From positions 4,650,001-4,714,000 of the forward strand of contig NZ_CP097263.1 of the NCBI RefSeq assembly GCF_028622115.1: 64,000 nt of DNA. The letters are read 5' to 3'. The notes below the pieces were generated by a model. That model had not been told where the DNA came from and searched no databases. It was given only the letters and a program-made list of their open reading frames with translations. The DNA is from Kutzneria chonburiensis (GTDB taxonomy: Bacteria; Actinomycetota; Actinomycetes; Mycobacteriales; Pseudonocardiaceae). Positions 4,451-45,061 of the stretch are shown piece after piece. Positions within the stretch are counted from its first letter, which is position 1. Each line of letters opens with the position of its first letter. The translations under genes were made by a program, and so were the position numbers.

Positions 4451-5102
4451 TCCGGTCGGTACGGTCCCGGTCGGCGGCGAAGGCGACGCCGCGAGCCCGG
4501 GGCACGGTCGGCACGCCGCCGATCGGGTAGTCGAGGGCCCGCAGCACGTCGTCGGGCAGCGACTCGGCCGGCACGCCAACGCGCAGCAGCAGCTCGCGCA
4601 CCTGGATCGGGCGGGAGCGCGTGAGAATGTCGAAGACGCCGGCCCGCAGCAGGGTCAGCCGCCGCATGAAACGCTGGATGTCGACCGGCCGGCCGCCACG
4701 CAGGTCACGCCATTCGGCCTGGTGCTTGCGGGCCATCTCGGTCAGCCGCACGTAGTCGAGCAGGCTGCTGCCGGAGCCGGAACGGGCCACGTCGGTGAAC
4801 TCGGAGCCGTCGATCACCGGCTGCGGCCACTGGCGGTGGTAGTCGGCCGCCGACGGGGCCGGATAGGCCCACAGGAATACTCCGTCGCCGTCCGTTGTTT
4901 GCACGATCAGCGAGGTCGGCGGCAGCCCGTAGGCCTCCGCAATCCGGCCGGCCGCGGCCATCCCGAGCTGCGATGACGTTCCGCTGACCTGTCCGCACCA
5001 CCCGTGCGGCGTCGGCAGCGCGTCGAGCGTGCTTCCCGGCAGCGGCCCCGTCTCGGACGCGATCTCCCGCGCCCACACCGCGACGATCTCCCCACGCTCC
5101 AT
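4428..5102 (-). CDS. Hypothetical protein, 224 aa
   Basis: No family is recognised. ATG at 5102 is chosen because an upstream extension would run into the leader and coding region of rho. The protein is soluble, with no signal peptide or membrane segment. It has an acidic N-terminal half (LIVQTTDGDGVFLWAYP, a beta-rich region) and an Arg-rich helical C-terminal half (DIQRFMRRLTLLRAGVFD) that could be a small helical domain. No clear ribosome site is seen, so translation may be leaderless. The 3' end overlaps the LuxR gene by 23 bp in convergent orientation. Confidence 0.6.
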   Translation of the reverse strand: MERGEIVAVWAREIASETGPLPGSTLDALPTPHGWCGQVSGTSSQLGMAAAGRIAEAYGLPPTSLIVQTTDGDGVFLWAYPAPSAADYHRQWPQPVIDGSEFTDVARSGSGSSLLDYVRLTEMARKHQAEWRDLRGGRPVDIQRFMRRLTLLRAGVFDILTRSRPIQVRELLLRVGVPAESLPDDVLRALDYPIGGVPTVPRARGVAFAADRDRTDRITSPGRS

Positions 5103-7279: not shown

Positions 7280-8042
7280 GCCGGAACCACTCGGTCAGGC
7301 CACGATCGACCACGGCCGCCCCCGCCGACTGCGGCGCGGGCTCGATACCGGGTCGCTCGGCCAGCGCGTGTTCCAGTCCTGGCACGGACAACAGCTCGTT
7401 GCCGGGCTCGGACGCCAGCTTCAGGGCGTCAGCACGGAAATCGGCGTGGTCGAGTTCACCGCTGACCACCAGCAGTGGCGCCCGGATCGCCGTCGCCCTG
7501 GCCACGAAGTCCAGGCTGTCGACGATCGCGGTGGTCTCCTCGTCGTACGGATAGTCGGGCCGGATCAGCCCGACCACCGGGCGCATGGTGATGGCGGCGT
7601 TGACGACGGCGCCGGCGAACACGGGAATGCTGGTGTCGGCCAGCACACGCAGGGCGACCGCGCCGCCGAGGGAGCCACCAACCACTCCGATGGGGCCGTC
7701 CCCGATCGGGAACTGCTCGCGCAGCGACGCCAAGGCGGTCGGGAACTCCGTGACGGCCTGCGTTACGAAAGCGTGCAGGTAGTCCAGCAGCGGATCCTGC
7801 TGCGCCAAAGCCATGATCGCGTTCATGCCGCCGTCGACCATCCGCGCCCCGCACATGGGCATGCCCAGATGGATCCGCCAGGCCGGGACGTCGAGCATCG
7901 GCAGCGCCGCGGCGAACGCGGCGTTGCTGGCCGGGGCGTCGATCATGTGCCACGTGACGATCAGTGGTGCTGGACCGCCGTTGACCGGGGGCAGGGCGGT
8001 GAAGGGCACGCCGGCGGCGGTACCGGTGATCGCGGAATCCAT
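7266..8042 (-). CDS. Alpha/beta hydrolase
   Basis: A 258-residue alpha/beta-fold hydrolase. The nucleophile elbow is GGSLGG in GVVGGSLGGAVALRV, the acid is likely Asp in SGELDHADF and the His lies in GLEHALAER, all in the expected order. ATG 8042 is chosen because the upstream extension has no hydrolase features and only 95 bp separate it from the next gene. There is no signal peptide, so it acts in the cytoplasm. The N-terminal oxyanion region (LIVTWHMIDAP) is compatible with an esterase or lipase; the substrate is unknown. Confidence 0.82.
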   Translation of the reverse strand: MDSAITGTAAGVPFTALPPVNGGPAPLIVTWHMIDAPASNAAFAAALPMLDVPAWRIHLGMPMCGARMVDGGMNAIMALAQQDPLLDYLHAFVTQAVTEFPTALASLREQFPIGDGPIGVVGGSLGGAVALRVLADTSIPVFAGAVVNAAITMRPVVGLIRPDYPYDEETTAIVDSLDFVARATAIRAPLLVVSGELDHADFRADALKLASEPGNELLSVPGLEHALAERPGIEPAPQSAGAAVVDRGLTEWFRLRLN

Positions 8043-10635: not shown

Positions 10636-11379
10636 CTACCGCCGATCGTGCGCGTGCACCGATCGCTCGACGTCCGGCCCGATGTAGGTGCCGAGCCGTT
10701 CGCCCTGGCAGATCGCGGCCATCACGCCGGTGCGCTCGATGTCGAACACGTGCATCGGCAGCTTGTGGTCGCGGGCCAGGATGAACGCGGACTGGTCCAT
10801 CACGCCGAGTTCCCGCTCCAGCACGTGGGCGTAGGTCAGCTTGGCGAAACGCAGCGCCTCGGGGTGTTCGCGCGGATCGCTGTCGTAGACGCCGTCGACG
10901 CCGTGTTTGGCCACCAGCAAAGCGTCGGCGCCGATCTCGACGGCCCGCTGCACGCTGGGATAGTCGGTGGTCAGGAACGGCTGGCCGATCCCGCCGGCCA
11001 GAATGACCACGGACCCCTTCTCCAGATGGTGCACCGCCCGCAGCCGGATGTACGGCTCGGCGACGGCGTCGATCGGCACCGCGGTCATCACCCGCACGTC
11101 GTGCTCGCCGAGCGCGGTCAGCCGGCCCCGCAGCAGCAGGCTGTTGATCACCGTGCCGAGCATGCCGATGTTGTCCGCTTCGACCCGGTCGATGCCCCAG
11201 GACTCGGATCTGTTGCCCCGAAAGACATTGCCGCCGCCGACCACCACGGCCACCTGGATGCCCAGCCGGCGAACCGAGACCACTTCGGACGCCAGGTGGT
11301 CCAGCGCGCCCGCGCTGAACCCGTACTCGTCGGGCCCGGCGATGGCCCGGCCGCTCAGCTTCACCACGATGCGACGCAC
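10636..11379 (-). CDS. pyrH: UMP kinase (PyrH family), probable paralogue
   Basis: A 247-residue amino-acid-kinase-fold enzyme that makes UDP from UMP. It shows the family hallmarks VVKLSGRA (residues 5-12), VVGGGNVFRG, DNIGMLGTVINSLLL, VILAGGIGQPFLTTDY and KHGVDGVYDSDP. GTG 11379 gives the normal length; the ribosome site is weak. Housekeeping pyrH normally sits between tsf and frr, which are absent here, so this is likely a second copy with a special role. It lies just upstream of the LigD-like gene (9 bp gap) and diverges from a DUF218 gene. Confidence 0.85.
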   Translation of the reverse strand: MRRIVVKLSGRAIAGPDEYGFSAGALDHLASEVVSVRRLGIQVAVVVGGGNVFRGNRSESWGIDRVEADNIGMLGTVINSLLLRGRLTALGEHDVRVMTAVPIDAVAEPYIRLRAVHHLEKGSVVILAGGIGQPFLTTDYPSVQRAVEIGADALLVAKHGVDGVYDSDPREHPEALRFAKLTYAHVLERELGVMDQSAFILARDHKLPMHVFDIERTGVMAAICQGERLGTYIGPDVERSVHAHDRR

Positions 11380-12675: not shown

Positions 12676-13581
12676 TCAGGCCGAGGCGAGGGTGAGGGCG
12701 TCGAGGTGGGACTGGGTGAGCTTGAGGGAGGACGCGGCCAGCAAGGCCGGGAGCTGGGAGAGTTTGCGGGCGCTGGCGATGGGGGCGGCGACCTGCTTGC
12801 GCGAGCTGAGCCAGGCCAGGGCGATGGAGGCCGGCTCGGCGCCGGTCTGGGCGGCGACGGCGTCCAGGGCGGCGAGGACCTTGTTGCCGCGCTCGGTGCC
12901 GACGTACTGGGCGACGCCGCCGCCGCGCACCGAGTCGACCTCGACGCCGGGGCGGTGCTTGCCGGTGAGGAAGCCCATGGCCAGGGAGAAGTACGGGAAC
13001 ACGGCGAGGTCGAACTTCTCGGCGACGGCGGCGAGCGGCCCCTCGTAGCTGTCCCGCGACATCAGGCTGTAGTGCGGCTGCAACGCCACATAGGCGGCCT
13101 TGCCCTCGGTGGCGGAGTACTCCAACGATTCGGTCAGTCGCTCGGGCGACACGTTGGATGCGGCGATCTCGCGCACCTTGCCCGCCCGGACCAGGTCGTC
13201 CAGGGTGTCGATGATCTGCGGAACGGTCACCGACGCGTCGTCGTGGTGGGTGTAGAGGAGGTCGATCCGGTCGGTGCGCAGCCGCTGGAGGCAGCCGTCG
13301 ACCGAGGCCCGGACGGTCTCCGGCTTGAGCCCCGGGTGCGTCGGGTCGTCCGGCCAGCCGATCTTGGTGGCGATCACCACGCCGTCGCGCTTGCCCCACT
13401 GCCCGATGTAGGTCTCGGACAGGTGGCCGCCGTACAGGGCGGCGGTGTCCACATGGTCGCCGCCGCCGTCGACGAAGGCGTCCAGGATGCGGGCCGCGCC
13501 CGCGGCGTCCACCGAGCGACCGAAGACGTTGGTGCCGAGGCAGTGCGGGCCGACGGTCAGAGAGCCGATCGTTGTGGTCAT
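12676..13581 (-). CDS. Aldo/keto reductase
   Basis: A 301-residue (beta/alpha)8 NADPH-dependent oxidoreductase. The catalytic tetrad is visible as Asp in DHVDTAALYG, Tyr in LYGGHLSE, Lys in VIATKIG and His in LLYTHHDD. The C-terminal cofactor loop region contains PIASARKLSQL. It follows the nitrilase by 10 bp on the same strand and is therefore probably the last gene of the operon that starts at 17074. Its role there (for example reducing an aldehyde or ketone from an aromatic precursor) is not known. Confidence 0.88.
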   Translation of the reverse strand: MTTTIGSLTVGPHCLGTNVFGRSVDAAGAARILDAFVDGGGDHVDTAALYGGHLSETYIGQWGKRDGVVIATKIGWPDDPTHPGLKPETVRASVDGCLQRLRTDRIDLLYTHHDDASVTVPQIIDTLDDLVRAGKVREIAASNVSPERLTESLEYSATEGKAAYVALQPHYSLMSRDSYEGPLAAVAEKFDLAVFPYFSLAMGFLTGKHRPGVEVDSVRGGGVAQYVGTERGNKVLAALDAVAAQTGAEPASIALAWLSSRKQVAAPIASARKLSQLPALLAASSLKLTQSHLDALTLASA

Positions 13582-22953: not shown

Positions 22954-24255
22954 GTGATCCCGACCGTCGACCAGGTGGTCTCCGAGGTCGAGAAGCTGGC
23001 CGCCGACCGGCCGGAGGTGTGCCGCACGCGGCGGATCGGCACGTCCAGGCTGGGTGAGCCGCTGCGGATGCTGTCGGTGGGGCACGGACGGCGCAACGCG
23101 CTGGTGGTGGGCTGCCCGCACCCGAACGAGCCGATCGGCCTGCGCACGGTGCTCGACCTGGCCAAGCGGGTGGCCACCACGCCGGAACTGCGGGAGGGGA
23201 TGGACTTCAGCTGGCATTTCGTGCCGTGCATCGACCCGGACGGCACCCGGCTGAACGAGGGCTGGTTCGACGGCCCGCTGACGATCCGCGGCTACCACGA
23301 GAACTTCTACCGGCCGGCCTTCGAGGATCAGCCGGAATGGACCTTCCCGGTGCTGGACGAGCGGGCCTTCTTCGACCGCACGCTGCCGGAGACGCAGGCA
23401 CTGGCCAGGGTGATCGACGAGCTGCGGCCGAAGTTCCAGTACTCCTTGCACAACGCGAACTTCGGCGGTGTCTTCTTCATCCTCAACGGCGGTTTACCGG
23501 GCATGGGCGAGGATCTGGGCCAGGTGGCGGCGGAGCAGGGTGTGCCGCTGTCGCTGGGGCCGGTGGACACGCTGGGCTGGGAGACGGCGGCGCCGGCGGT
23601 GTACCTGATGCCGCCGGCCTCGAAATTGATCGAGTCGGCGGCCCGGGGCACACGGAACTCGGTGCGGCACGGGGGATCCAGCGCGCACTACGCCGAGCGG
23701 TACGGCACGACGACGCTGATCACCGAGGTGCCGTTCTGGCACGACGCCCGCGCCGACGACCTGTCCGACGCGGGCCGGTCCTACGCGGACACTCTCCGAC
23801 ACGCGGCGGTCGAACTGCGGGACGATAGGTCGGTGCTGTCCGACTTGTACGAGCAGATGCAGCCGCGGCTCGTGGTGCCGACGCCGATGCGACGGTCCAT
23901 CGCCGACACGCTGGCCACCGCCTCATCGGCGGCCGCGGCCAACGACGCGGTGGCCGACCACGCGCCGGACCGGCCGGCCACGGTGGCCGAGGCGTTCGCG
24001 GCGTCGACCCTTGTGCACATGCTGCGGCTGCGGGCCAGCGGCATGATGCGCCGGCAGCTGGCCGTCGAGCACGCCGCCGGCAACCAGCCGCCCGAGTCCC
24101 GCCGGCTCAAGCGCCGTCTCGACGAGCTGTTCGACACCTGGTGCGCCGCCGCCGAAACCGAGCTGTCGCAGGACACCTTTCCGGTGCGGCAACTCGTTTC
24201 CGTGCAGTCCGAGGCGGCGCTGGCGGTGGTCAGAAGGCTGGCGTCATGCGATTGA
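22954..24255 (+). CDS. M14 family zinc carboxypeptidase-like protein
   Basis: A 433-residue cytoplasmic M14 metallopeptidase. Zinc ligands are His56 and Glu59 in CPHPNEP and His165 in YSLHNANFG; the catalytic Glu is in TTLITEVPFW near 257. There is no signal peptide, so a cytosolic substrate (peptide, amino-acylated metabolite or similar) is expected. GTG 22954 follows GGAGG. A TTA leucine codon occurs near residue 181. The last 10 bp overlap the TetR gene, and the C-terminal 150 residues (Ala-rich, helical) are not part of the peptidase domain. Confidence 0.83.
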   Translation: MIPTVDQVVSEVEKLAADRPEVCRTRRIGTSRLGEPLRMLSVGHGRRNALVVGCPHPNEPIGLRTVLDLAKRVATTPELREGMDFSWHFVPCIDPDGTRLNEGWFDGPLTIRGYHENFYRPAFEDQPEWTFPVLDERAFFDRTLPETQALARVIDELRPKFQYSLHNANFGGVFFILNGGLPGMGEDLGQVAAEQGVPLSLGPVDTLGWETAAPAVYLMPPASKLIESAARGTRNSVRHGGSSAHYAERYGTTTLITEVPFWHDARADDLSDAGRSYADTLRHAAVELRDDRSVLSDLYEQMQPRLVVPTPMRRSIADTLATASSAAAANDAVADHAPDRPATVAEAFAASTLVHMLRLRASGMMRRQLAVEHAAGNQPPESRRLKRRLDELFDTWCAAAETELSQDTFPVRQLVSVQSEAALAVVRRLASCD

Positions 24256-24833
24256 CCCGTTCCCAGTCGCGGCAGCGCAACCGGGACGCGCTGATCGACG
24301 CCGCGCTGGTGGAGATGGCCGAGCGCGGCTACCAGCAGGCCCGCCTCGACGACATCGCCGAGCGGGCCGAGCTCACCACCGGCGCGGTGTACTCGATCTT
24401 CGGCAGCAAGCGGAACCTGCTGCTGGCCGTGGTCGCCCGCTACGCCGACGAGCTCGACGGCCTGCTGGCCGAGCTGTCCGATCCGCGGCTGTCCCTGTCC
24501 GAGGTGCTCACCGGCTGCGCCGACGCCTTCCACCTCGTCGCCACCGCCTCCGACGCCCGCCGCCGCGTCGCCTTCGAGCTCGAACTCGCCGGTCTCATGC
24601 TGCGCGACCCCACTGTGCTGTCCCTGACCACCACCAGCCGCCTCGCCGCCCTGTTCGTCGACCGGTCGTTCACCGGCGGCGAGGTCACCGCCGAGCAGGC
24701 CGAGCAGCTGGCCCCCGCCCTCGGCGCACTGCTCGGCGGTCTGGTCCGCCGTGCCGTGCTCGAACCGGGCACGGTTGACCAGGAGTACTTCCGCCGCTCG
24801 GCACTGGCCCTGACCTGCCTGCTCAGAACGTGA
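24246..24833 (+). CDS. TetR family transcriptional regulator
   Basis: A 195-residue TetR protein with an N-terminal helix-turn-helix (RLDDIAERAELTTGAVYSIFGSKRNLL, residues about 30-60) and a helical ligand domain. It overlaps the peptidase gene by 10 bp and probably represses that operon through the palindrome at 22907. Its last codons (CTC AGA ACG TGA) fall inside the left copy of the 20-bp repeat that bounds the Shango cassette, so its end is shared with the insertion boundary. Confidence 0.9.
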   Translation: MRLTRSQSRQRNRDALIDAALVEMAERGYQQARLDDIAERAELTTGAVYSIFGSKRNLLLAVVARYADELDGLLAELSDPRLSLSEVLTGCADAFHLVATASDARRRVAFELELAGLMLRDPTVLSLTTTSRLAALFVDRSFTGGEVTAEQAEQLAPALGALLGGLVRRAVLEPGTVDQEYFRRSALALTCLLRT

Positions 24834-24840
24834 GGACGAG
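24821..24840. repeat. 20-bp direct repeat, left copy, flanking the Shango cassette
   Basis: GCTCAGAACGTGAGGACGAG, identical to 30935-30954. This copy contains the last codons and stop of the TetR gene. The bases on either side differ between the copies, so the duplication is exactly 20 bp. The two copies enclose the three defence genes with little else. Confidence 0.85.
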
Positions 24841-24932
24841 CCGACGACGATGTCGATCAGATCACGGCCGTAATGCCCTTCATCCGGATCGCGATGTGAG
24901 CGAGGTCAGCCGGCGGAGGTACCGCGGCACGG

Positions 24933-27383
24933 GTGACCAAGGGGGCGTCCACACAGGTGTCCGGTCTGATCGGCCTTCTGCTACTGGCGGGGGTCATCTG
25001 GTATCTGGTCCGCCGACACCGTCGTCGTGCGGCACGCAACCGAACGAACCCGATCGCGGCAGGGCCGGCGCGACCCGCGATGCAGCCGATCCAACCGATG
25101 CCGAGAAGCACCGGAATGCCATTCGTACCGGTGATGCAACCACCGCCTGCGATGCCACCGCCTCCCGCTCCGGCACCGTGGCCCGCCGTGGCACCGCCGG
25201 CGCCGATACCGCCGCCGACCATCACGCACACGGTGATCGCACAGCCGGCACCGCCCGTCCCGAAAAGACCGCAACGCCGTCCGGGCCGGAGCATTCCCGG
25301 CGCGTTGTGGCTGCCCGCCGGGACCAGGTTCGACGTGTCAGGGCTGTCGATTCCGGGCGGAATGGTCTATCTCGGCTCGCATCTGCCCGCCGAGAACGGT
25401 CACGGCGAAGAACCCGCGCTGATCGTGCCGAATCTACCGGTCGATCTCCGACGACCCGATGTCCGAGGCGAGTCGATGGGCTACTGGCCGTCCTACTCTC
25501 GGATCACGCCGGCCGCACGTGGGGCCTACCTCCGCTGGCTCGCCGGCGGACGCGTGGATCCCAACGCCTACATCGGCTATGTCTTCCTCTACTTCTACGG
25601 GCTCGAGCGGCGGCTGTTCGTGGACGGCTTGAACACACCACTGACCACCACGGAGCAAACCGCCCTGCTCGACGAGGTCCGCCGACTGCTGTCGATCTAC
25701 CAGCACAATGGCTCGTTCCGTGGCTACGCGCAGAACCTGTTGAACGCCATGGCCGTGCTCTCACCGCCCCCTCGACCCGAACACCCACCGACAGCACCGG
25801 GCGGCTGGTCCGAACAGCTGCCGCTCGAACTCCGTGTCGGGCTTTCCCAGCTGTGTGCGGAAGGAACGCCGGTTCCCGTGGATTGGGCCCTCGCCTGGAT
25901 CACGCAACTGCCGGACACCTATCTCCGCACGCCGGCCACGCGCTGTTCGACACAGTTCGAACAACTCTTCGCGCTGCGCTACCGCGAGTCGTACGGTTCG
26001 GGCGTGGTCCTGAGGGCAGGACCGCGAAAGCTGTCCGTCTACCACCACTTGGCCAGCGGCGGTATTTCCAACCGCGCCGCATTCCAGAACCCTCGGCTGA
26101 GCGAGGTCAGCGACGACGGGCGAACGATCTCCGCACTACGCCAGATCGTCGAACGCGCGACGACCGAGCTCGACTCCTACAGCCGCTACCTGGGGCGACA
26201 CCCGGAGGGGGCGGACGACTCCGCCGCCCTTGCCCTGCTGCCGCCCGCATTGGTTGTCGAGCCGCCCCCTTCCGTCCGCGCCCTGTGGTCATGGGCCGAC
26301 GAGGAGTTGGGATCCGCCCAGCGGACAGTGACGTCAACCGAGAACATGCTCGCGCACTGGCCCGACGCCCCGGCAAGCGGCAAGCTGGTCAAGGCGGACA
26401 TGGTCGTGCTCGCACAACTGCTGGACCGCAGGGGCATCGGCATCGAACCAGATGTTCGGTTCGGGGGCAGCCCGGCCCAAGCCGGCAAGCCGCTGGTGCT
26501 TTTCCGCCGTGCGGACCACCAGGTGACGGCGCCGACCCCGGAATACCCGATCGGTCTCGCCGCGGTCAATCTCGGCATGCTCGTCGCCGTCGCGGACGGC
26601 GTCGTGAGCGACCAGGAAACGAAGACGCTGCGGGAGATGGCGGTCGATCCGCTCGATCTGTCCCCGGACGAACGTCGTCGGCTGGAGGCGCATGAGGCAC
26701 TCGTCGCGGCGAATCCTCCGACACCGGCGGTGCTGAGACGACGAATCGGCGTCCTGTCCGAGGATCGCAAGACAGCTGCGGGACACCTCCTGATCAGCAT
26801 CGCGGCCGTCGACGGTGAGATCACCAGTGACGAGGTCCGCAAGCTCGAGTCATTGTTCCAGGGCCTCGGCCTCGACCCGAAACTGATCTACTCCGCCCTG
26901 CACGAGGCCGCCACCACCAGCATCACGGACGACGAACCCGTCGTTATGAGCACGACGGGCACCGCAGCGCCACGCGTGCCGGTGCCTCGCCCGACCCGCA
27001 CGTCGGCGGCTCGCACCGGGCTGGTGCTCGACCCGGCGTTACTCGCGGCGAAACGGGCCGAGTCCGCCCGTGCCGCAGCCCAGTTGGCCGAGATATTTGC
27101 CGCCGACGACGAACCGGCCACCGCCGCGACCGCGGTCGCGGAAGACGTGGACGTGGTATCCGGTCTCGACCAGGCGCATTCCAGCCTTTTCCGGCAGCTC
27201 GTGACGCGAGAGCAATGGGCTCGGGTCGAGGTGGAGCGAATGGCGGCCGATCTCGGGCTGCTGCCCGACGGAGCGCTCGACCTGCTCAACGAGACCGCGT
27301 TCGACCACACGGACGGCCCACTGTGGGAGGGCGACGACCCGATCACGATCGATCCCGACACCGCGAAGGACATGCACGGATGA
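24933..27383 (+). CDS. sngA: Shango defence protein SngA, TerB-domain protein with N-terminal membrane anchor
   Basis: An 816-residue protein. Residues about 12-27 are a membrane segment (LIGLLLLAGVIWYLV) followed by an Arg-rich stop-transfer and a Pro-rich linker (42-112). A TerB_N-type domain follows (YWPSYSRITPAARGAYLRWLAGG, VFLYFYGLERRL), then a TerB region with two acidic helical repeats (VADGVVSDQETKTLREM; AAVDGEITSDEVRKLESLF) and a TerB_C-like end. It is the first gene of a TerB/ATPase/helicase trio matching the Shango anti-phage system. GTG 24933 has GGAGG rather far upstream. A TTA codon lies at 27039. The last 4 bp overlap sngB as ATGA. Confidence 0.85.
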   Translation: MTKGASTQVSGLIGLLLLAGVIWYLVRRHRRRAARNRTNPIAAGPARPAMQPIQPMPRSTGMPFVPVMQPPPAMPPPPAPAPWPAVAPPAPIPPPTITHTVIAQPAPPVPKRPQRRPGRSIPGALWLPAGTRFDVSGLSIPGGMVYLGSHLPAENGHGEEPALIVPNLPVDLRRPDVRGESMGYWPSYSRITPAARGAYLRWLAGGRVDPNAYIGYVFLYFYGLERRLFVDGLNTPLTTTEQTALLDEVRRLLSIYQHNGSFRGYAQNLLNAMAVLSPPPRPEHPPTAPGGWSEQLPLELRVGLSQLCAEGTPVPVDWALAWITQLPDTYLRTPATRCSTQFEQLFALRYRESYGSGVVLRAGPRKLSVYHHLASGGISNRAAFQNPRLSEVSDDGRTISALRQIVERATTELDSYSRYLGRHPEGADDSAALALLPPALVVEPPPSVRALWSWADEELGSAQRTVTSTENMLAHWPDAPASGKLVKADMVVLAQLLDRRGIGIEPDVRFGGSPAQAGKPLVLFRRADHQVTAPTPEYPIGLAAVNLGMLVAVADGVVSDQETKTLREMAVDPLDLSPDERRRLEAHEALVAANPPTPAVLRRRIGVLSEDRKTAAGHLLISIAAVDGEITSDEVRKLESLFQGLGLDPKLIYSALHEAATTSITDDEPVVMSTTGTAAPRVPVPRPTRTSAARTGLVLDPALLAAKRAESARAAAQLAEIFAADDEPATAATAVAEDVDVVSGLDQAHSSLFRQLVTREQWARVEVERMAADLGLLPDGALDLLNETAFDHTDGPLWEGDDPITIDPDTAKDMHG

Positions 27384-28729
27384 GCTCCCCCGCACCAAAA
27401 CCCGCCCGGCTTCGGTCGAAGGACCGCGACACGATCATCAATGCCCTGCGCTCCGGTGTGGTGCCGAGAGTGGGCTTTCAGCACATCCAGGTCGGACGCG
27501 CCGACGAGATCACGGCGTTCACCGATGACGTCCGGCGCATCGCCGACGGCGGCGCCGCCGTGCGGTTCGTCATCGGCGAGTACGGCGCCGGCAAGACGTT
27601 CTTCCTCAACCTGATGCGCTCGGTGGCGGCCGAGCACAAGCTGGTCACCACCGCGGCCGACCTGACGCCGGACCGGCGCCTGCAGGCGAGCGGCGGCCAG
27701 GCTCGTGCCCTGTACAGCGAGCTCATGCGCAACATCTCCACCAGGTCCGCACCGGACGGTGGGGCGCTGCCCGGTGTGGTCGAGCGATTCGTCACCTCCG
27801 CCGTGCAGGAGGCCACGGCGGCGGGCACGGCCCCGGACACGGTGATCGCGCGCCGGCTCGACGCACTGTCCGAGAACGTCGGCGGTTACGACTTCGCGCA
27901 AGTCATCGCCGCGTACTGGCGTGGCCACGACACCGGCAACGAGCAGCTGAAGTCGGACGCGATTCGTTGGCTCCGCGGCGAGTTCAGCACACGCACCGAC
28001 GCCAGGGCCGCGTTGGGCGTGCGAACCATCGTGGACGACAACAACTTCTACGACCAGCTCAAGTTGCTCGCGCAGTTCGTACGGCTGGCCGGTTTCGGCG
28101 GCCTCATGGTCTGCCTGGACGAGATGGTCAATCTGTACAAACTTGGGCACGCCGGTGCCCGCAAGTCCAACTACGAGCAGGTGCTGCGCATCGTCAATGA
28201 CGGTCTCCAGGGCACTGTGACGGGACTGGGTGTCTATTTCGGCGGTACTCCTGAGCTGCTGATGGACACCCGCCGCGGCCTCTACAGCTACGAGGCCCTG
28301 CGCAGTCGGCTGGCGGAGAACGCGTTCGCGGTCGGCGGCCTGGTGGACCACACAGGCCCGGTGCTGCGCCTGGCCAGCCTCACCCCGGAGGACATGTACC
28401 TGCTGCTGGAGAAGCTGCGTCATGTCTACGCCGGCGGCGACCCGGACCAGTACCTCGTGCCGGACGAGGCCCTCGGCGCGTTCATGGGTCACTGCTCGGA
28501 CAAGGTGGGGGACGCCTACTTCCGCACCCCACGCAACACGATCAAGGAGTTCGTCAACCTGCTGGCCGTCCTGGCGCAGAACCCGGGTGTGCGTTGGGAG
28601 GACACGCTCTCGCAAGTGAGTGTCGCTGCCGAGAGCAATCCCGATCTCGTGCCGTTCGAGGATGACGCGGACGGGCTCGGCGGCATCGACGAGGCTGGCG
28701 ACGATGAGCTCAGCTCGCTCCGGATCTGA
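27380..28729 (+). CDS. sngB: Shango defence ATPase SngB (DUF2791/BrxD-like)
   Basis: A 449-residue P-loop ATPase of the DUF2791 family, which is shared with BREX BrxD. Walker A is GEYGAGKT (66-73, Lys72), Walker B is GGLMVCLDEM (Asp247, Glu248), and sensor-like residues follow in GVYFGGTPELL. The N-terminal segment (INALRSGVVPRVGFQHIQVGR) is typical of the family. It overlaps sngA by 4 bp and sngC by 26 bp, so the three proteins are made together. No BREX core genes (pglZ, brxC) are present, which supports Shango over BREX. Confidence 0.9.
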   Translation: MSSPAPKPARLRSKDRDTIINALRSGVVPRVGFQHIQVGRADEITAFTDDVRRIADGGAAVRFVIGEYGAGKTFFLNLMRSVAAEHKLVTTAADLTPDRRLQASGGQARALYSELMRNISTRSAPDGGALPGVVERFVTSAVQEATAAGTAPDTVIARRLDALSENVGGYDFAQVIAAYWRGHDTGNEQLKSDAIRWLRGEFSTRTDARAALGVRTIVDDNNFYDQLKLLAQFVRLAGFGGLMVCLDEMVNLYKLGHAGARKSNYEQVLRIVNDGLQGTVTGLGVYFGGTPELLMDTRRGLYSYEALRSRLAENAFAVGGLVDHTGPVLRLASLTPEDMYLLLEKLRHVYAGGDPDQYLVPDEALGAFMGHCSDKVGDAYFRTPRNTIKEFVNLLAVLAQNPGVRWEDTLSQVSVAAESNPDLVPFEDDADGLGGIDEAGDDELSSLRI

Positions 28730-30947
28730 GCCGGCGGCGTCCGGGTTCGACCTGCTGCACCGGGATGTCCAGCGGTGGGTGTGGCAACGTGGCTGGTCCG
28801 ACCTGCACGACGTGCAGGATCGCGCCGTTCAGCCGATTCTGGGCCGGGAACGGGACGTCCTCATCGGCGCCGCCACCGCCGCCGGCAAGACCGAGGCTGC
28901 GTTCCTGCCGATCTGCTCCGACCTGGTGTCGGCCGGGTCGGCGGGCGCCGGTGTGCAGGTGCTCTACCTCAGCCCGCTCAAGGCCTTGATCAACGATCAG
29001 TTCCGGCGCGTCGACGACCTGTGTGAGGGCCTTGGCATCCCGACCCACCGCTGGCACGGCGACGTCGCGCAGTCGAAGAAGACCGCGCTGGTCAAGGATC
29101 CAGGCGGCATCCTGCTCACCACCCCCGAGTCGCTGGAGGCGATGTTCGTCCGTCGCGGCCCGCAGCTCAGAACGCTGTTCGCCGGCCTGCGCTACGTCGT
29201 CGTGGACGAGCTGCACTCCTTCCTGGGCGTTGAACGGGGCACCCAGCTGATCTCGCTGCTGCACCGCCTGGAGACCGCGCTCCGTGACCGCGTGCCGCGA
29301 ATCGGCCTTTCGGCGACGCTGGGCGACATGTCGATCGCCGCCGAGCAGCTTCGGCCTGGCGGGGGCACGCAGGTGACTGTGATCGATTCGCCATCGGGCG
29401 GGCAGGACGTCCGTCTTCAGATCCGGGCGTTCGTGGACCGACCGCCACCACGGGAGAATCCGGCCGCCTCGGATCCGGACATGACGAGCGGGCCGGCGGT
29501 GGACCAGGTGGCAGCGCACCTGTTTCGCGTATTGCGGGGTTCCACGAACCTGGCGTTCGCCAACTCACGAAACATGGTCGAGGCGCTCGCCAGCAGGCTC
29601 GCCGACCTGTCGCAGCAGACGCACGTGAGCAACGAGTTCCATCCGCACCACGGCAGCCTGGCCAAAGAGCTGCGCGAGGACGTGGAGGCAAGCCTGCGGG
29701 ACCCGAGTCGCCCCAGCACCGCCGTGTGCACCAGCACGTTGGAGATGGGGATCGACATCGGTGACATCGCACAGGTGGCTCAGATCGGTGCACCACCGTC
29801 CGTTGCCGCATTGCGCCAGCGGATCGGCCGTTCCGGCCGCCGTGGAACGCCGGCAGTGCTGCGTGGCTACGTGACCACCTCGGAGCCGGACGCGCACAGC
29901 ACTGTGCTCGACCGCCTGCACCCGCACGTCGTTCAGCTGGTTGCCGACGTCGAACTGTTGCGGGAGCACTGGTGTGAACCTCCGCGACCGGCTCGCCAGG
30001 ATCTGTCCACATTGGTGCAACAGCTGCTCTCGCTGATCGTCCAGCACGGCGGAGCGCGGCCGGAGGAGGCGTACCGGGTGTTGTGCGGCCGTGGTGGGCC
30101 GTTCACCTCGGTGAGCCAGCGGCATTTCGGGATGTTGCTCCGCGATCTGGCGACGCACGAGGTGCTGACGCAGTCCGACGACCGCACTCTGCTCGCCGGC
30201 CCCAAGGGCGACCTCGAGGTGAATCACTACAGCTTCTACGCCGCGTTTCACACCGCCGAGGAGTATCGCCTGGTCCATGGCGACGCCACGCTCGGCACGC
30301 TGCCGGTCGACCAAGCCCTCCACGAAGAGCAACTGATCATCTTCGCCGGCCGGCGCTGGCGTGTGGTGGCCGTCCATGACGAGGACAAGATCATCCAGCT
30401 GATGCCGGCGCCTGGCGGCAAAGCGTCGATCTTCGGGCTGTCATCTGGCCGGGTGCACGCGACTGTACGGGCCCGGATGCGGTCGATCCTCGCCGGTGGT
30501 GGCTCCTTTCCGTATCTGGACAGCGTGGCACGGCAGATCCTCGAGCAGGGTCGGCGTGCGTTTGCCGAACTCCGCCTCGACGAACGCGGGTTCGTCCGCG
30601 AGGGGCGGGACGTGCTCGTGCTGCCCTGGACCGGCGATCTCGAACTGGACACACTGGCCCAATTGCTGATCTTGCAAGACCTGGATGTCGCAGCGACGAA
30701 CGTGGCTCTGGTCGTCTCGGGCGCCGATGTCGACGAGGTGCGGGCCGCTGTCAAGACCGTCTCTGAGACGCCGCCGCCCGCCGAGATCGAGCTCGCCAGG
30801 ACCGTGCTGAACAAGATGTCCGCCAAATACGACAAATGGCTCGGCGACGAGCTGTTGGCCGTGCAGTACGCGAGCATGAATCTTGATTGCCCGGCCGCCG
30901 TGCAGGTCGCCAAGGCCCTCGCCGCCGTGGAGCAGCTCAGAACGTGA
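28704..30947 (+). CDS. sngC: Shango defence helicase SngC (DEAD/DEAH-like SF2)
   Basis: A 747-residue superfamily-2 helicase. Motif I is ATAAGKTEAA (Lys62), motif II DELH (168-171), motif III GLSATLG, and motif VI QRIGRSGRRG near 380. The helicase core is followed by about 330 residues of Lhr-like extension without an obvious nuclease motif. ATG 28704 is chosen as the first Met before the conserved region. The protein ends VEQLRT, with the last residues and stop coded by the right 20-bp repeat, like the TetR end (CLLRT). It presumably acts on phage DNA with SngA and SngB. Confidence 0.9.
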   Translation: MSSARSGSEPAASGFDLLHRDVQRWVWQRGWSDLHDVQDRAVQPILGRERDVLIGAATAAGKTEAAFLPICSDLVSAGSAGAGVQVLYLSPLKALINDQFRRVDDLCEGLGIPTHRWHGDVAQSKKTALVKDPGGILLTTPESLEAMFVRRGPQLRTLFAGLRYVVVDELHSFLGVERGTQLISLLHRLETALRDRVPRIGLSATLGDMSIAAEQLRPGGGTQVTVIDSPSGGQDVRLQIRAFVDRPPPRENPAASDPDMTSGPAVDQVAAHLFRVLRGSTNLAFANSRNMVEALASRLADLSQQTHVSNEFHPHHGSLAKELREDVEASLRDPSRPSTAVCTSTLEMGIDIGDIAQVAQIGAPPSVAALRQRIGRSGRRGTPAVLRGYVTTSEPDAHSTVLDRLHPHVVQLVADVELLREHWCEPPRPARQDLSTLVQQLLSLIVQHGGARPEEAYRVLCGRGGPFTSVSQRHFGMLLRDLATHEVLTQSDDRTLLAGPKGDLEVNHYSFYAAFHTAEEYRLVHGDATLGTLPVDQALHEEQLIIFAGRRWRVVAVHDEDKIIQLMPAPGGKASIFGLSSGRVHATVRARMRSILAGGGSFPYLDSVARQILEQGRRAFAELRLDERGFVREGRDVLVLPWTGDLELDTLAQLLILQDLDVAATNVALVVSGADVDEVRAAVKTVSETPPPAEIELARTVLNKMSAKYDKWLGDELLAVQYASMNLDCPAAVQVAKALAAVEQLRT

Positions 30948-30954
30948 GGACGAG
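30935..30954. repeat. 20-bp direct repeat, right copy, flanking the Shango cassette
   Basis: Exact copy of 24821-24840. It contains the stop codon of sngC on the + strand and the stop and last codons (LVLTF) of the oxidoreductase gene on the - strand. Before insertion the TetR and oxidoreductase genes would have overlapped by 11 bp in this sequence. Confidence 0.85.
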
Positions 30955-31788
30955 TTTGCCGCGGACGCCGGCGTCGGCGCGGCGGTGGGCCTCGACGGCA
31001 TCCGAGGCGGGGACGGCGTCGGCGAGGCGGGACTGGAGCCGGCCGGCGGCGTAGGCGGCGATGAGGGTGTCGAGGGTGTCGCGGTCGGGCTTGACCTGGA
31101 CCTGGTCGACGCGGATGTCACGGTCGGGCGTGGGCTTGGCGGCGGCGTTGACGGCGACGAAGACGCCGCCGGCACGGACGGCGGTGATCAGCCCGGGACC
31201 GGCGATGCCGGCGTCGAGTACGGCGTCGAACTGGCCGTCGACCTCGCCGCGGCCGATGACGGACTTGGCGCCGAGGGAAGAGACGTACTCGGCGTCGGAG
31301 GCCATGGCGGTGACGTGCACGCCGGCGGCGGAGGCGAGCTGCACGGCGAAGCCGCCGACGGCCCCGCCGGCACCGGTGATCAACAGCGACTGCCCGGGCT
31401 GCACGCCGAGCAGGTCGAGGGCCTGCTTCGCGGTCTGCCCTGACAGCGGCACGGTGGCGGCGGCGACGGGGTCGACGCCCTCGGGCAGCGGCACGAACCA
31501 CTCGGGCCGGACCGCCACCAACTCCGCATTGGTACCGCGTCGCGCCACGAACCACGGAACCATGCCAACGACCGGACGGCCGTCGACGGTGCCGGCGAAG
31601 TCCCAGCCCAGCACCACCGGCGCGGCCAGGTTGGGGATGCGCCCGGCCCGGACGGCCCGGTCGACCGGGTTGACGGTGCTGGCCCGCACCCTGACCAGGA
31701 CCTCGTTCTCGGCCACGACCGGCTCCGGCCGGTCGACCAGGGTCAGGACCTCGGGACCGCCGAACCGCGGCACCTCGATAACTCGCAT
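30937..31788 (-). CDS. Quinone oxidoreductase-like NADPH:zinc-independent MDR protein
   Basis: A 283-residue medium-chain reductase. ATG 31788 follows AAGGAGG. The N-terminal GroES-like part (NEVLVRVRASTVNPVDRAVRAG, LGWDFAGTV) lacks the usual structural-zinc Cys set, and the NADPH fold is at LLITGAGGAVGGFAVQLA. This fits quinone or enone reductases. It diverges from an HxlR regulator with a YodB-like box between them, an arrangement known for quinone-sensing pairs. Its 3' end lies in the 20-bp repeat beside the Shango cassette. Confidence 0.88.
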   Translation of the reverse strand: MRVIEVPRFGGPEVLTLVDRPEPVVAENEVLVRVRASTVNPVDRAVRAGRIPNLAAPVVLGWDFAGTVDGRPVVGMVPWFVARRGTNAELVAVRPEWFVPLPEGVDPVAAATVPLSGQTAKQALDLLGVQPGQSLLITGAGGAVGGFAVQLASAAGVHVTAMASDAEYVSSLGAKSVIGRGEVDGQFDAVLDAGIAGPGLITAVRAGGVFVAVNAAAKPTPDRDIRVDQVQVKPDRDTLDTLIAAYAAGRLQSRLADAVPASDAVEAHRRADAGVRGKLVLTF

Positions 31789-31833
31789 GACTGCCTCCTT
31801 GGTGGATGTGCTGCCACCATTCGGGGCCATGGG

Positions 31834-41958: not shown

Positions 41959-43118
41959 TCACACCGCCCCCACGAGATGCTCCAGCGCGAGCTGCGACAG
42001 GCGCACGAAGCCGTACCCCTGGCCCCGACCGCGTCCGGATCGAACTCGGTGTCGGCGGCGCGGAGATCGGCCACGGTCTCGCGGCGGGACAGCGTGGGCA
42101 GCAGGATCTCGTCAACCTTGGCCGCCCGCAACGCTTCCTGCACATCCGGGTCAGCGCGGAAAGCGGCCGCGCGTTCCTTGAGCAGCAGGTAGGTCCGCAT
42201 GTTCGCGGCCGCGCTCGCCCACACGCCGTCGATGTCCTCGGTGCGCAGCGGCTTGTAGTCGAAGTGCCGCGGGCCTTCGTATCCGGCCTGCTCCAACAGG
42301 TCCACCAGGAAGAAGGCGGACAGCAGGTCGCCGTGGCCGAAGATCAGGTCCTGGTCGTAGCGGGGGCCGCGCTGGCCGTTGAGGTCGATGTGGAACAGCT
42401 TGTCCTGCCACAGGGCCTGCGAGATGCCGTGCACGAAGTTGAGCCCGGCCATCTGCTCGTGCCCGACCTCCGGGTTCACGCCGACGAGGTCGGTGTGCTC
42501 CAGCGTGGAGATGAAGCCGAGGGCGTGGCCGATGGTCGGCAGCAGGATGTCGCCGCGCGGCTCGTTCGGCTTGGGCTCGATGGCGAACCGCAGGGTGTAG
42601 CCCTGGTCGACGACGTACTGGGTGAGCACGTTCATCGCCTCGCGGTAGCGGTCCAGGGCCGCCCGGACGTCCTTGGCCGCGTCGGTCTCCGAGCCTTCCC
42701 GGCCGCCCCACAACACGTACGTGCCGGCGCCGAGCTCCGCCGCCAGATCCACATTGCGCAACACCTTGCGCAGCGCGAAGCGCCGCACCGAGCGGTCGTT
42801 GCTGGTGAAGCCGCCGTCCTTGAAAACCGGATGGGTGAACAGGTTCGTGGTGGCCATCGGCACGACCATGCCGGCATCGTCGACCGCCTTGCGGAAACGC
42901 TTCACCCGCTCCTCGCGCACGGCGTCGTCGGCGCCGAACGGGATCAGGTCGTCGTCGTGGAAGGACACACCCCACGCGCCGAGCTCGCCGAGGCGGTGAA
43001 CCGATTCGACGGGGTCGAGCGCCGGCCGGGTCGGCTCGCCGAACGGGTCGTTGGCGCGCCAGCCCACGGTCCACAGGCCGAAGCTGAATCTGTCCGCCGG
43101 TGTCGGGTCCGCGGCCAC
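41959..43118 (-). CDS. xylA: Xylose isomerase with C-terminal frameshift
   Basis: The protein matches actinomycete xylose isomerase. With GTG 43118 (GGAGG 5 nt upstream) the metal/catalytic residues fall at the classical positions (His54, Asp57 in [10 protein letters not shown]); [25 protein letters not shown] and HIDLNGQ follow. At [10 protein letters not shown] the frame is lost near 42029-42032; inserting one G in the GGGG run restores [18 protein letters not shown] and a stop at 41959, giving about 386 residues. Unrepaired, the frame would run on to 41820 with a nonsense tail. Probably a sequencing error; xylB is not adjacent. Confidence 0.85.
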
Positions 43119-43141
43119 GTCGACCTCCATCTGGCTTAGTT

Positions 43142-43154
43142 AGTTCGCCGAACT
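43142..43154. promoter_or_regulatory. Candidate sugar-regulator operator upstream of xylA
   Basis: AGTTCG-C-CGAACT, a perfect 13-bp palindrome within TTAGTTAGTTCGCC and its AT-rich flank, 24 bp upstream of the xylA start. The TTAGTT flank resembles ROK-type XylR sites. It also lies 26 bp before the divergent kinase start. Confidence 0.5.
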
Positions 43155-43179
43155 TACGCATCGGCAAGTCGGGCAGTCA

Positions 43180-44439
43180 ATGACAGCCCGATTGCCCGTG
43201 GGCGAACGCGGGTACCTGGTCAGGGTGAGTCCTAGCGAAGCTTCGCCGCCGACGCCAGTGGCCGGAAGATACGCACTGGTCAGGACGCTGGGCGCGGGCG
43301 GAATGGGCGTCGTGTGGCTGGCCAGGGACCTGCTGCTCGGCCGCGAGGTCGCGGTCAAGGAGGTCACCGGTCAGGGTGAACGGGTGCTGCGGGAGGCCCG
43401 CACCGCGGCCCGGATCGTGCACCCGAACGTCGTCACCGTCTACGACGTGGTCGAGCACGACGACCGGCAGTGGATCGTCATGCAGCACGTGGAGTCGCGG
43501 ACCCTGGCCGACGTGATCGCCGAGGAGGGTCCGCTGTCCCCCGACCGGACCGCGGAGATCGGCCTCGACCTGCTGGCCGCGCTGCGGGCGGCGCACGACA
43601 GCGGCGTGCTGCACCGTGACGTCAAGCCGGGCAACGTGTTGCTGGACCCCGCCGGGCGGGCGTACCTGGCCGATTTCGGCATCGCCAGCGCCGACGGCGA
43701 CGCCAGCCTGACCGCGGCCGGCACGTTGGTCGGCGCACCGGCCTACATGGCGCCGGAGCGGCTGCGCGGGCTGGCCTGCGGGCCGGCGTCGGACTACTGG
43801 TCCCTCGGCGTGACGCTCTACGCCGCCGTGGAAGGGATCGTGCCGTTCGACCGCACGGATCCGTTGGCCACCATGACCTCCACGCTGACCGACCCGCTGC
43901 CGCCGCCGGTACGGGCCGAGTTCCTGGCCCCGCTGCTGATCCGGCTGCTGGACAAGGACCCGGATGGCCGCCCCGAGCCGGCGGAGATCTTCACGGCGCT
44001 GAGCGGCTCCGCACTCGTGCAGGCCACCGTGCCGATGCAGCCCGGTCCCCCGCACCGGCGGCGGGCCCCGATGGCCGTCGGCGCGTTCGTGCTGGCCGCC
44101 GTGGTCGGCGTGATGTTCCTGCTGCTCAGGACCGCTCCCCCGGGGCACCAGCCCGGCCACGACCCGGCCGCTCCCCCGTCGGCGACCACGACTTCCCAGC
44201 AGCCGGACCGCATCGCACCGGTGGTCGCCACCAACCCTTCGACCAGTAGCACTGGTTCGACCACCGAGTCGACCTCGGCCACGACGACCACGACCGGCGA
44301 GCCGACCACGACCGAGCCGCCCACCACGACGCCGCCGACCACCACCGAGCCGCCCACGACGACGGCGCAGCCGACAACGACACCCGAGAGCACCAGCACC
44401 CAGATCGAGGAAGAGACTTCCGTTTCGCCCACAGGTTGA
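43180..44439 (+). CDS. Membrane Ser/Thr protein kinase (PASTA-less)
   Basis: A 419-residue Hanks-type kinase. The kinase domain (about 28-280) has the glycine loop LGAGGMGVV, VAVKEV (Lys), HRDVKPGNVLL, DFGIAS and APE. A membrane segment (about 288-310, AVGAFVLAAVVGVMFLLL) leads to a Thr/Pro-rich extracellular tail of about 100 residues, with no PASTA or sensor fold visible. GTG 43225 is an alternative start closer to the kinase domain. Signal and targets are unknown; it diverges from xylA. Confidence 0.9.
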   Translation: MTARLPVGERGYLVRVSPSEASPPTPVAGRYALVRTLGAGGMGVVWLARDLLLGREVAVKEVTGQGERVLREARTAARIVHPNVVTVYDVVEHDDRQWIVMQHVESRTLADVIAEEGPLSPDRTAEIGLDLLAALRAAHDSGVLHRDVKPGNVLLDPAGRAYLADFGIASADGDASLTAAGTLVGAPAYMAPERLRGLACGPASDYWSLGVTLYAAVEGIVPFDRTDPLATMTSTLTDPLPPPVRAEFLAPLLIRLLDKDPDGRPEPAEIFTALSGSALVQATVPMQPGPPHRRRAPMAVGAFVLAAVVGVMFLLLRTAPPGHQPGHDPAAPPSATTTSQQPDRIAPVVATNPSTSSTGSTTESTSATTTTTGEPTTTEPPTTTPPTTTEPPTTTAQPTTTPESTSTQIEEETSVSPTG

Positions 44440-44455
44440 TGTTGGGAGGACGAGG

Positions 44456-45061
44456 GTGAAGTGGTACGCGGACCGGCCAGGCCGGTTCCTGCGGCAGGTG
44501 CTCGCCGATGTCGTCGCGCTCGCGTGGATCGGTGGCTGGATCTGGCTCGGTGTCCAGGTCCATGACACCGTGCAGCGATTACGGGGCCCGGGTGACGGGC
44601 TCGTCAACGCCGGCGGCGGGCTGCGGGACACCTTCCGCGACGCCGCGGCCAGCGCCGGCAAGGTGCCGTTCGTCGGCGAGCAGCTGGCCAACGCGCTCGG
44701 GGCCGGCACCCATGCCGGGTCGAGGCTGGTCGACGCCGGCAACGGGGAGATCGACATCGCCGAAAGCCTGGCGTTCTGGGTGCCGGTGGCGCTCGTGCTC
44801 GCGCCGGTGCTGTTCGCGTTGCTGCTCTGGTTGCCGCTGCGTGTCCGCTACGCGCGGTCGGCCGCGGCCGTGCGTCGGATCGGCGCTCTGGACGGCGGCG
44901 ACGACCTGCTCGCGCTGCGGGCGCTGACCCGGCTGCCGCTGCGGACGCTGGCCCGGGTCAGCGACGATCCGGCCGGGGACTGGCGCAAGGGCCGCCGCCG
45001 GGTGATCGGCGAGCTGGCCGCCATGGAACAAAACTCGCTCGGATTGCGTCGCTCTACGTAG
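44456..45061 (+). CDS. Two-TM membrane protein, unknown function
   Basis: A 201-residue protein. Membrane segments lie at about 16-33 (VLADVVALAWIGGWIWLGV) and 105-128 (FWVPVALVLAPVLFALLLWLPL); between them is a glycine/alanine-rich external loop (SAGKVPFVGEQLANALGAG). The cytoplasmic tail is Arg-rich. GTG 44456 follows GGGAGGACGAG. It begins 16 bp after the kinase gene and may be cotranscribed with it. No family was recognised. Confidence 0.78.
   Translation: MKWYADRPGRFLRQVLADVVALAWIGGWIWLGVQVHDTVQRLRGPGDGLVNAGGGLRDTFRDAAASAGKVPFVGEQLANALGAGTHAGSRLVDAGNGEIDIAESLAFWVPVALVLAPVLFALLLWLPLRVRYARSAAAVRRIGALDGGDDLLALRALTRLPLRTLARVSDDPAGDWRKGRRRVIGELAAMEQNSLGLRRST

Follow-up and report, generated by a model that had tools for sequence, protein, structure and literature searches.

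How did a three-gene operon, predicted to be a Shango phage-defence system, come to lie exactly between two copies of a 20-bp sequence in the chromosome of Kutzneria chonburiensis? In our study, this locus was analysed within a stretch of 64,000 nucleotides (contig NZ_CP097263.1, positions 4,650,001 to 4,714,000), which is termed the window and from whose first letter all its positions are counted. The original prediction, made from the letters of the window, had proposed that the repeat is a target-site or att-type duplication left by a carrier which lost its integrase or never had one. A clean insertion with a duplicated 20-mer was indeed found, whereas the att site of a carrier minus its integrase was not supported.

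The direct repeat and the empty site in related genomes

The sequence GCTCAGAACGTGAGGACGAG is present as an exact match at both 24821-24840 and 30935-30954, as had been predicted. No further match was found in the window at up to three mismatches (100 shuffles also gave 0), and none in the remainder of the 10.4-Mb genome at up to two mismatches. The genus sample comprised seven genomes, the window's own included. In four of the six congeners (G001, G002, G003 and G004) the TetR-family gene runs straight into the end of the convergent oxidoreductase gene, and the junction carries one 20-mer, identical at 20/20 positions in G002, G003 and G004 and at 19/20 in G001. For the remaining two, G005 and G006, the 18-mer core of the repeat gave no match at up to one mismatch. 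The alignment of cassette-free relatives that had been proposed as a check has thus yielded an uninterrupted junction with a single 20-mer.

Because these four congeners carry the empty site with a single copy, the repeat is more than a chance match, in agreement with the original prediction. Chance repeats do exist in GC-rich genomes, and random pairs of stretches reached 13 bp and, in another set, up to 16 bp; the present repeat, however, coincides exactly with insertion borders that are proven by the empty sites. A chance repeat with no relation to the cassette was rejected on this ground and its probability is negligible. The insertion, its exact borders and the duplication are therefore direct observations.

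The TetR identity to the window is 90.9% in G002, 89.4% in G003, 88.5% in G004 and 85.8% in G001. As the empty congeners include the nearest ones, a gain in the lineage of the window is the simplest history, and on parsimony 6,094 bp were probably gained there together with a 20-bp target duplication. The opposite history would have an ancestral cassette that the congeners lost precisely by recombination between the repeats. Such recombination has been proposed to account for the loss of comparable segments from E. coli and from H. pylori. Here, however, every one of the four junction-keeping congeners, even the nearest, would have had to lose the cassette, and the origin of the repeat itself would still require an insertion. 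Deletion in the relatives is very unlikely and was rejected on parsimony.

The position of the duplication also explains how both neighbours survived. The TetR stop lies at 24833 and the minus-strand oxidoreductase stop at 30937; after removal of one copy together with the insert, the two genes are rejoined as a convergent pair with an 11-bp overlap of their ends, as the earlier reading of the sequence had it. The 20-bp duplication spans this entire overlap, because of which neither neighbour was destroyed and the event could persist. Both neighbours keep their ends and the helicase gene of the cassette has taken its stop codon from the target, and the TetR and SngC frames were both confirmed to end in ...LRT-stop within the repeat. 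The oxidoreductase gene is whole in the window and nearly full-length in G001 (residues 6-297 matched), and only fragments of it were found in G002 (in which a 3-kb piece was searched), G003 and G004; its 3' end is kept in all four empty-site congeners.

Organization of the inserted operon

The insert consists of a 92-bp leader followed by SngA, SngB and SngC, with overlaps at both gene joins (Table 1). The three co-oriented genes all matched the Shango models of PADLOC, with E-values of 3.5e-83 (SngA), 1.5e-173 (SngB) and 3.7e-254 (SngC). Moreover, Pfam recognised TerB_N, TerB and TerB_C in SngA, BrxC_BrxD in SngB and DEAD and Helicase_C in SngC. On these profile matches the operon is classed as Shango, a predicted phage-defence system. 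The insert had been described as holding only TerB, ATPase and helicase genes, and the three Shango genes are those that were recognised in it.

The SngC frame has no stop before the repeat and ends in ...VEQLRT-stop, its final residues being derived from the target sequence. The number of residues after the conserved LD is 19 in the window and 13 to 31 (median 20) in 11 relatives; this comparison omits locus L089, the end of which falls at a junction, together with six loci in which SngC is much extended at the C-terminus. Since this tail length is within the range of the relatives, the insert appears to end near the usual end of the gene. The exact repeat would not have survived trimming at a later time, so the arriving DNA was presumably already as compact as the present insert.

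Table 1. Coordinates of the inserted operon, its bordering repeats and the adjoining genes in the window
Feature	Position	Strand	Remarks
TetR-family gene, left neighbour	24246..24833	+	reading frame intact
Left 20-bp direct repeat copy	24821..24840	+	original TetR 3' end; continuous with TetR in four congeners
Inserted DNA, 6,094 bp	24841..30934	+	missing at the same junction in G001-G004 (empty site)
GACGATGTCGATCA	24846..24859	+	differs by one insertion from GACGATTCGATCA, a sequence located upstream of SngA in related loci
SngA (TerB_N, TerB, TerB_C), 816 aa, GTG start	24933..27383	+	PADLOC and Pfam
SngB (BrxC/BrxD-type ATPase), 449 aa	27380..28729	+	PADLOC and Pfam
SngC (DEAD/Helicase_C helicase), 747 aa	28704..30947	+	last codons and stop supplied by the right repeat
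Right 20-bp direct repeat copy	30935..30954	+	original oxidoreductase 3' end; joined without a break to the oxidoreductase end in congeners
Zinc-binding oxidoreductase gene, right neighbour, convergent	30937..31830	-	reading frame intact

Search for an integrase, att site or transposon

No recombinase or carrier gene was seen between the repeats, either in the list of open reading frames or in the family scans. The nearest of nine PF00589 genes in the genome is 155.7 kb away, the genome-wide search having covered this family and not serine recombinases or transposases. Further, no inverted 8-mer is common to the two terminal 300-bp stretches of the insert. A DDE transposon or insertion sequence was rejected, as inverted repeats are absent from the ends and no transposase was recognised in the insert. 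With regard to an integron cassette, SngC runs into the repeat and leaves no space for an attC site at the right end.

The 18-mer (at most one mismatch) was found in 13 of 390 genomes of the family, with two copies in the window's own genome and one in each of the other 12. Eight carriers lie outside the genus and none of them has two copies. In seven of these eight, representing two genera besides that of the window, the 18-mer ends an oxidoreductase-like reading frame by our own reading, and therefore the sequence appears to be conserved as gene-end coding. No other element using the 18-mer was seen among the 390 genomes. An att island was rejected, as no integrase and no second use of the sequence were seen. 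Two viral contigs also carry the 18-mer; in the one examined it is found inside an integrase-like reading frame, unlike an attP site. Of 16 genomes carrying another Shango locus or a remnant of one, at least two have an integrase listed near the cassette, G194 at about 4 kb and G569 at about 12 kb, as measured from the end of the SngC frame.

These observations bear on a related possibility, in which a tyrosine integrase, acting in trans, integrated a small circular non-autonomous element site-specifically and the 20-mer is an att core that restores the conserved 3' end of the oxidoreductase gene. Att cores are typically perfect repeats of such a length placed at a gene 3' end, similar frames in the two other genera finish with a one-mismatch 18-mer, and the nine PF00589 genes elsewhere in the genome could be considered as a source of the enzyme. 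A 2025 preprint also reports defence-carrying elements flanked by 16-20 nt repeats, one of them at a tRNA gene end. On the other hand, no tRNA, integrase or excisionase was seen in the insert, a doubled 18-mer was found in no other genome of the 390, the viral copy examined does not look like attP, and border repeats are lacking at 34 of 35 other Shango loci. Integration in trans is possible but, on balance, rather unlikely.

Other insertions and other Shango loci

For a background, 450 kb of the own sequence was compared with 400-kb pieces of G003 and G004, the alignments being chained over 257 kb and 333 kb, respectively. Apart from the Shango insert, 36 apparent insertions were obtained, some of them twice (once per genome). 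Repeats near their borders measured 6-12 bp, with one exception in G004; the longest repeat in 300 random pairs was 13 bp. The Shango insert was not listed by the automatic insertion filter and was added manually. The repeat of 12 bp belongs to a 1.8-kb insertion in G003 whose main open reading frame reads, in our own reading, like an integrase-core transposase. The exception in G004 (reverse-complemented piece, 42171-44644) is an apparent 2.5-kb insertion with a duplicated stretch of at least 68 bp at its flanks.

A search of other Shango loci for flanking direct repeats had also been proposed, and at 34 of the 35 loci searched the border repeats did not exceed background. In these 34, no repeat of 12 bp or more joined the leader to the SngC end (in three there was none of at least 8 bp), and in L055 the longest was 14 bp, the border at many of the loci being set at the end of the SngC match and not at a proven junction. 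In L055, from Micavibrio, the 14-bp repeat is perfect (7753-7766 and 13495-13508; p=0.006, in one of 35 tests); its right copy begins 1 bp past the SngC stop and its left copy is inside the likely SngA reading frame. An earlier and wider look at 18 other loci, for repeats of at least 13 bp within 2.5 kb, showed only matches of 13-14 bp located off the borders.

The borders of two other cassettes were compared with related genomes. In G409 (L089), similarity to cassette-free congeners stops on the left by 5077/5078, at a motif GTGACGATTCGATCAAG common to G404, and target similarity resumes on the right at 11076-11080 in 7/7 genomes fetched; its SngC appears to have lost its own stop in comparison to G404. 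In G421 (L093), target similarity stops on the left at 4903/4904 in 10/10 fetched loci with that flank, the border being uncertain by about 30 bp. On the right it resumes at 10919, one base past the SngC stop at 10918, in 2/2 (G397 and G430), and the convergent neighbour loses its own stop by our own reading. The flanks of G409 are far apart in congeners having both, e.g. G389, G392 and G393, and for G421 no congener with both flanks was found among those listed, three candidates per genome being scored in these flank searches. Both are rearranged loci and not simple insertions. Neither shows a border repeat above background, a 9-bp repeat in G421 being within it (p 0.91). The flanks around the G440 and G380 cassettes gave no informative empty site, the limit of three candidates per genome applying to part of this search as well.

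Upstream of SngA, a 27-base motif (up to 8 substitutions) was found in 7/10 loci (L087, L088, L089, L091, L093, L095 and L096), of which L091 fits by construction as the motif was defined from it. It was not found in L090, L092 or the window, nor in any of 300 stretches of 610 bp drawn at random from the own chromosome (0/300). This conserved motif, which is close to GTGACGATTCGATCAAGTTGGTAACTC, is probably a promoter or operator. In the window, GACGATGTCGATCA, one insertion away from the core of the motif, lies 5 bp inside the left border of the insert and is the only match at up to one edit. In 450 kb of own sequence there is a second copy of this 14-mer and one additional match at a single edit, so its likeness to the motif could be due to chance.

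Right ends near the SngC stop were observed three times (the window, G421 and, with less certainty, G409), which suggests a defined unit; selection for intact genes in gene-dense DNA can, on the other hand, also drive surviving breakpoints to gene ends. The Shango operon could accordingly be imagined as a discrete mobile unit, with the promoter motif as its left end and the SngC stop as its right end, moved by an unrecognised enzyme which leaves target duplications of variable length. Besides the right ends, the left ends in G409 and G421 are 0 to about 50 bp from the conserved upstream motif, the left end of the insert in the window has a partial match to this motif about 5 bp away, and the L055 repeat starts just past its SngC stop. 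However, no common sequence was seen at the right ends, the left motif may merely be a promoter whose full form the window lacks, the flanks of G409 and G421 are not adjacent in congeners and their border repeats do not exceed background, and the left repeat of L055 is inside likely SngA coding sequence. This explanation is quite unlikely. A further reading is equally doubtful: Shango, and perhaps other defence operons, might travel as minimal units that reach from promoter to stop and whose ends are real, if sequence-poor, taken up by an unrecognised capture process, possibly with target duplication of variable length, and settling at gene ends. This would be a 'naked operon' mobility, a class with no recombinase of its own.

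Possible route of the insertion

The likeliest route, to which we assign a probability of about 0.55, is the capture of linear, operon-sized DNA at a staggered chromosome break whose 20-nt ends were filled in. Foreign linear DNA with little beyond the Shango operon would have been joined once into the overlapping 3' ends of the convergent TetR and oxidoreductase pair. The chromosome would have been broken there with 20-nt staggered ends, and these would have been filled in and ligated to the incoming fragment by end joining, either Ku-dependent or through other illegitimate repair. Alternatively, an equivalent template switch during replication repair may have been at work. In favour of this route are the single 20-mer of the four empty junctions, the lack of a shared inverted 8-mer at the insert ends, the distance of the nearest PF00589 gene, the ordinary genes around the locus and, as weak evidence since Ku genes are common in actinomycetes, three Ku genes in the genome.

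As regards the source of the fragment, SngB relatives were found in 680 plasmid records (671 over at least 80% of the length; 449 Klebsiella and 144 Salmonella). No relative was found in phage records at E 1e-40 (tblastn) and no close relative in viral contigs, so that viral carriers turned up in neither. The plasmid records indicate that Shango-carrying DNA enters cells by non-phage routes, and plasmids are a plausible source.

Several points weigh against this capture of linear DNA. With a randomly broken donor, an end only a few codons from the SngC stop would not be expected, yet this is seen in the window, G421 and, less surely, G409, and no cause of 20-nt staggered breaks was identified. 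Moreover, none of the 36 other apparent insertions was seen to combine operon size with a short exact duplication. The null result at 34 of the 35 Shango loci, where old repeats may have decayed, counts against a regular duplicating mechanism, and the missing border repeats of G409 and G421 count likewise against a general one.

Relation to known insertions

Defence systems have mostly been discussed as cargo of phages, plasmids and islands. The arrangement observed here most closely matches the 'insertion with long target duplication', which is frequent for restriction-modification genes and is credited, in PMC1643837, PMC3031569 and PMC4978471, to Nobusato et al. 2000. In PMC10423294, six H. 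pylori systems have 65-395-bp flanking repeats, with single copies in strains without the systems. The likeness is that defence genes are present within a direct repeat of target sequence which is single in strains lacking them. The differences are that the window has Shango in place of restriction-modification genes, a repeat of 20 bp in comparison to 65-395 bp, and an actinomycete host with Ku genes. Four of the six congeners have the single repeat copy at the empty site, and in the insert no transposase, integrase or inverted repeats of its own were recognised, 'no own transposase, integrase or terminal inverted repeats' being our wording of the class. As regards variability in duplication length, only a single event with a proven empty site is available here (20 bp), along with the range reported for H. 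pylori. The window can be described as sharing the anatomy of this class.

Other known systems share some of these features. The three genes of the window match the PADLOC Shango models in order and, like the Shango system of P. aeruginosa PA14 (PMC10250203), comprise a TerB-like protein, an ATPase and a helicase. The PA14 system is located in a core defence hotspot, and the main text of that paper does not contain the term 'direct repeat'. The ARMADA and Druantia III satellite or prophage-like elements, as described in PMC12458937, carry defence genes between 16-20 nt direct repeats; they encode integrases and use a tRNA gene end, neither of which was found at the window insert. According to PMC2884548, flanking repeats accompany 10-18% of variable segments and are below 30 bp in 66-94% of these cases, and illegitimate recombination or deletion between repeats is proposed; that survey concerns mostly small segments of E. 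coli, S. aureus and S. pyogenes and not defence operons. No published Shango cassette with a target duplication was found within the open-licence literature.

The pattern as such is already known from restriction-modification genes, and what is new is Shango, the actinomycete host and the shorter repeat, which extends the pattern to another type of defence and another phylum. The gain of a complete three-gene defence operon with nothing else, at an empty site resolved to the base, is a clean example of carrier-free gain. Further, the junction offers a concrete place for testing end-joining capture against integrase action.

Surrounding genes and minor observations

A SngC remnant was observed elsewhere on the chromosome of G003, which is empty at the present junction (L094, 9231-10328; residues 379-739 matched, 66.8% identity), and no SngA or SngB match was seen around it in the 19.5 kb fetched. 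Short Shango-like stretches are also present in G423 (SngA), G425 and G413. In L097, L098, L099, L100, L102 and L103 the SngC frame extends into an extra C-terminal part, of which there is none in SngC of the window; this part reads like a DnaQ-type exonuclease. Eight genes beyond the TetR and oxidoreductase neighbours were scanned (19.9-24.3 kb and 31.8-36.7 kb) and all were found to be ordinary, namely an AMP-binding enzyme, a methyltransferase, a carboxypeptidase, HxlR, TetR and LuxR-type regulators, DUF6986 and malate synthase.

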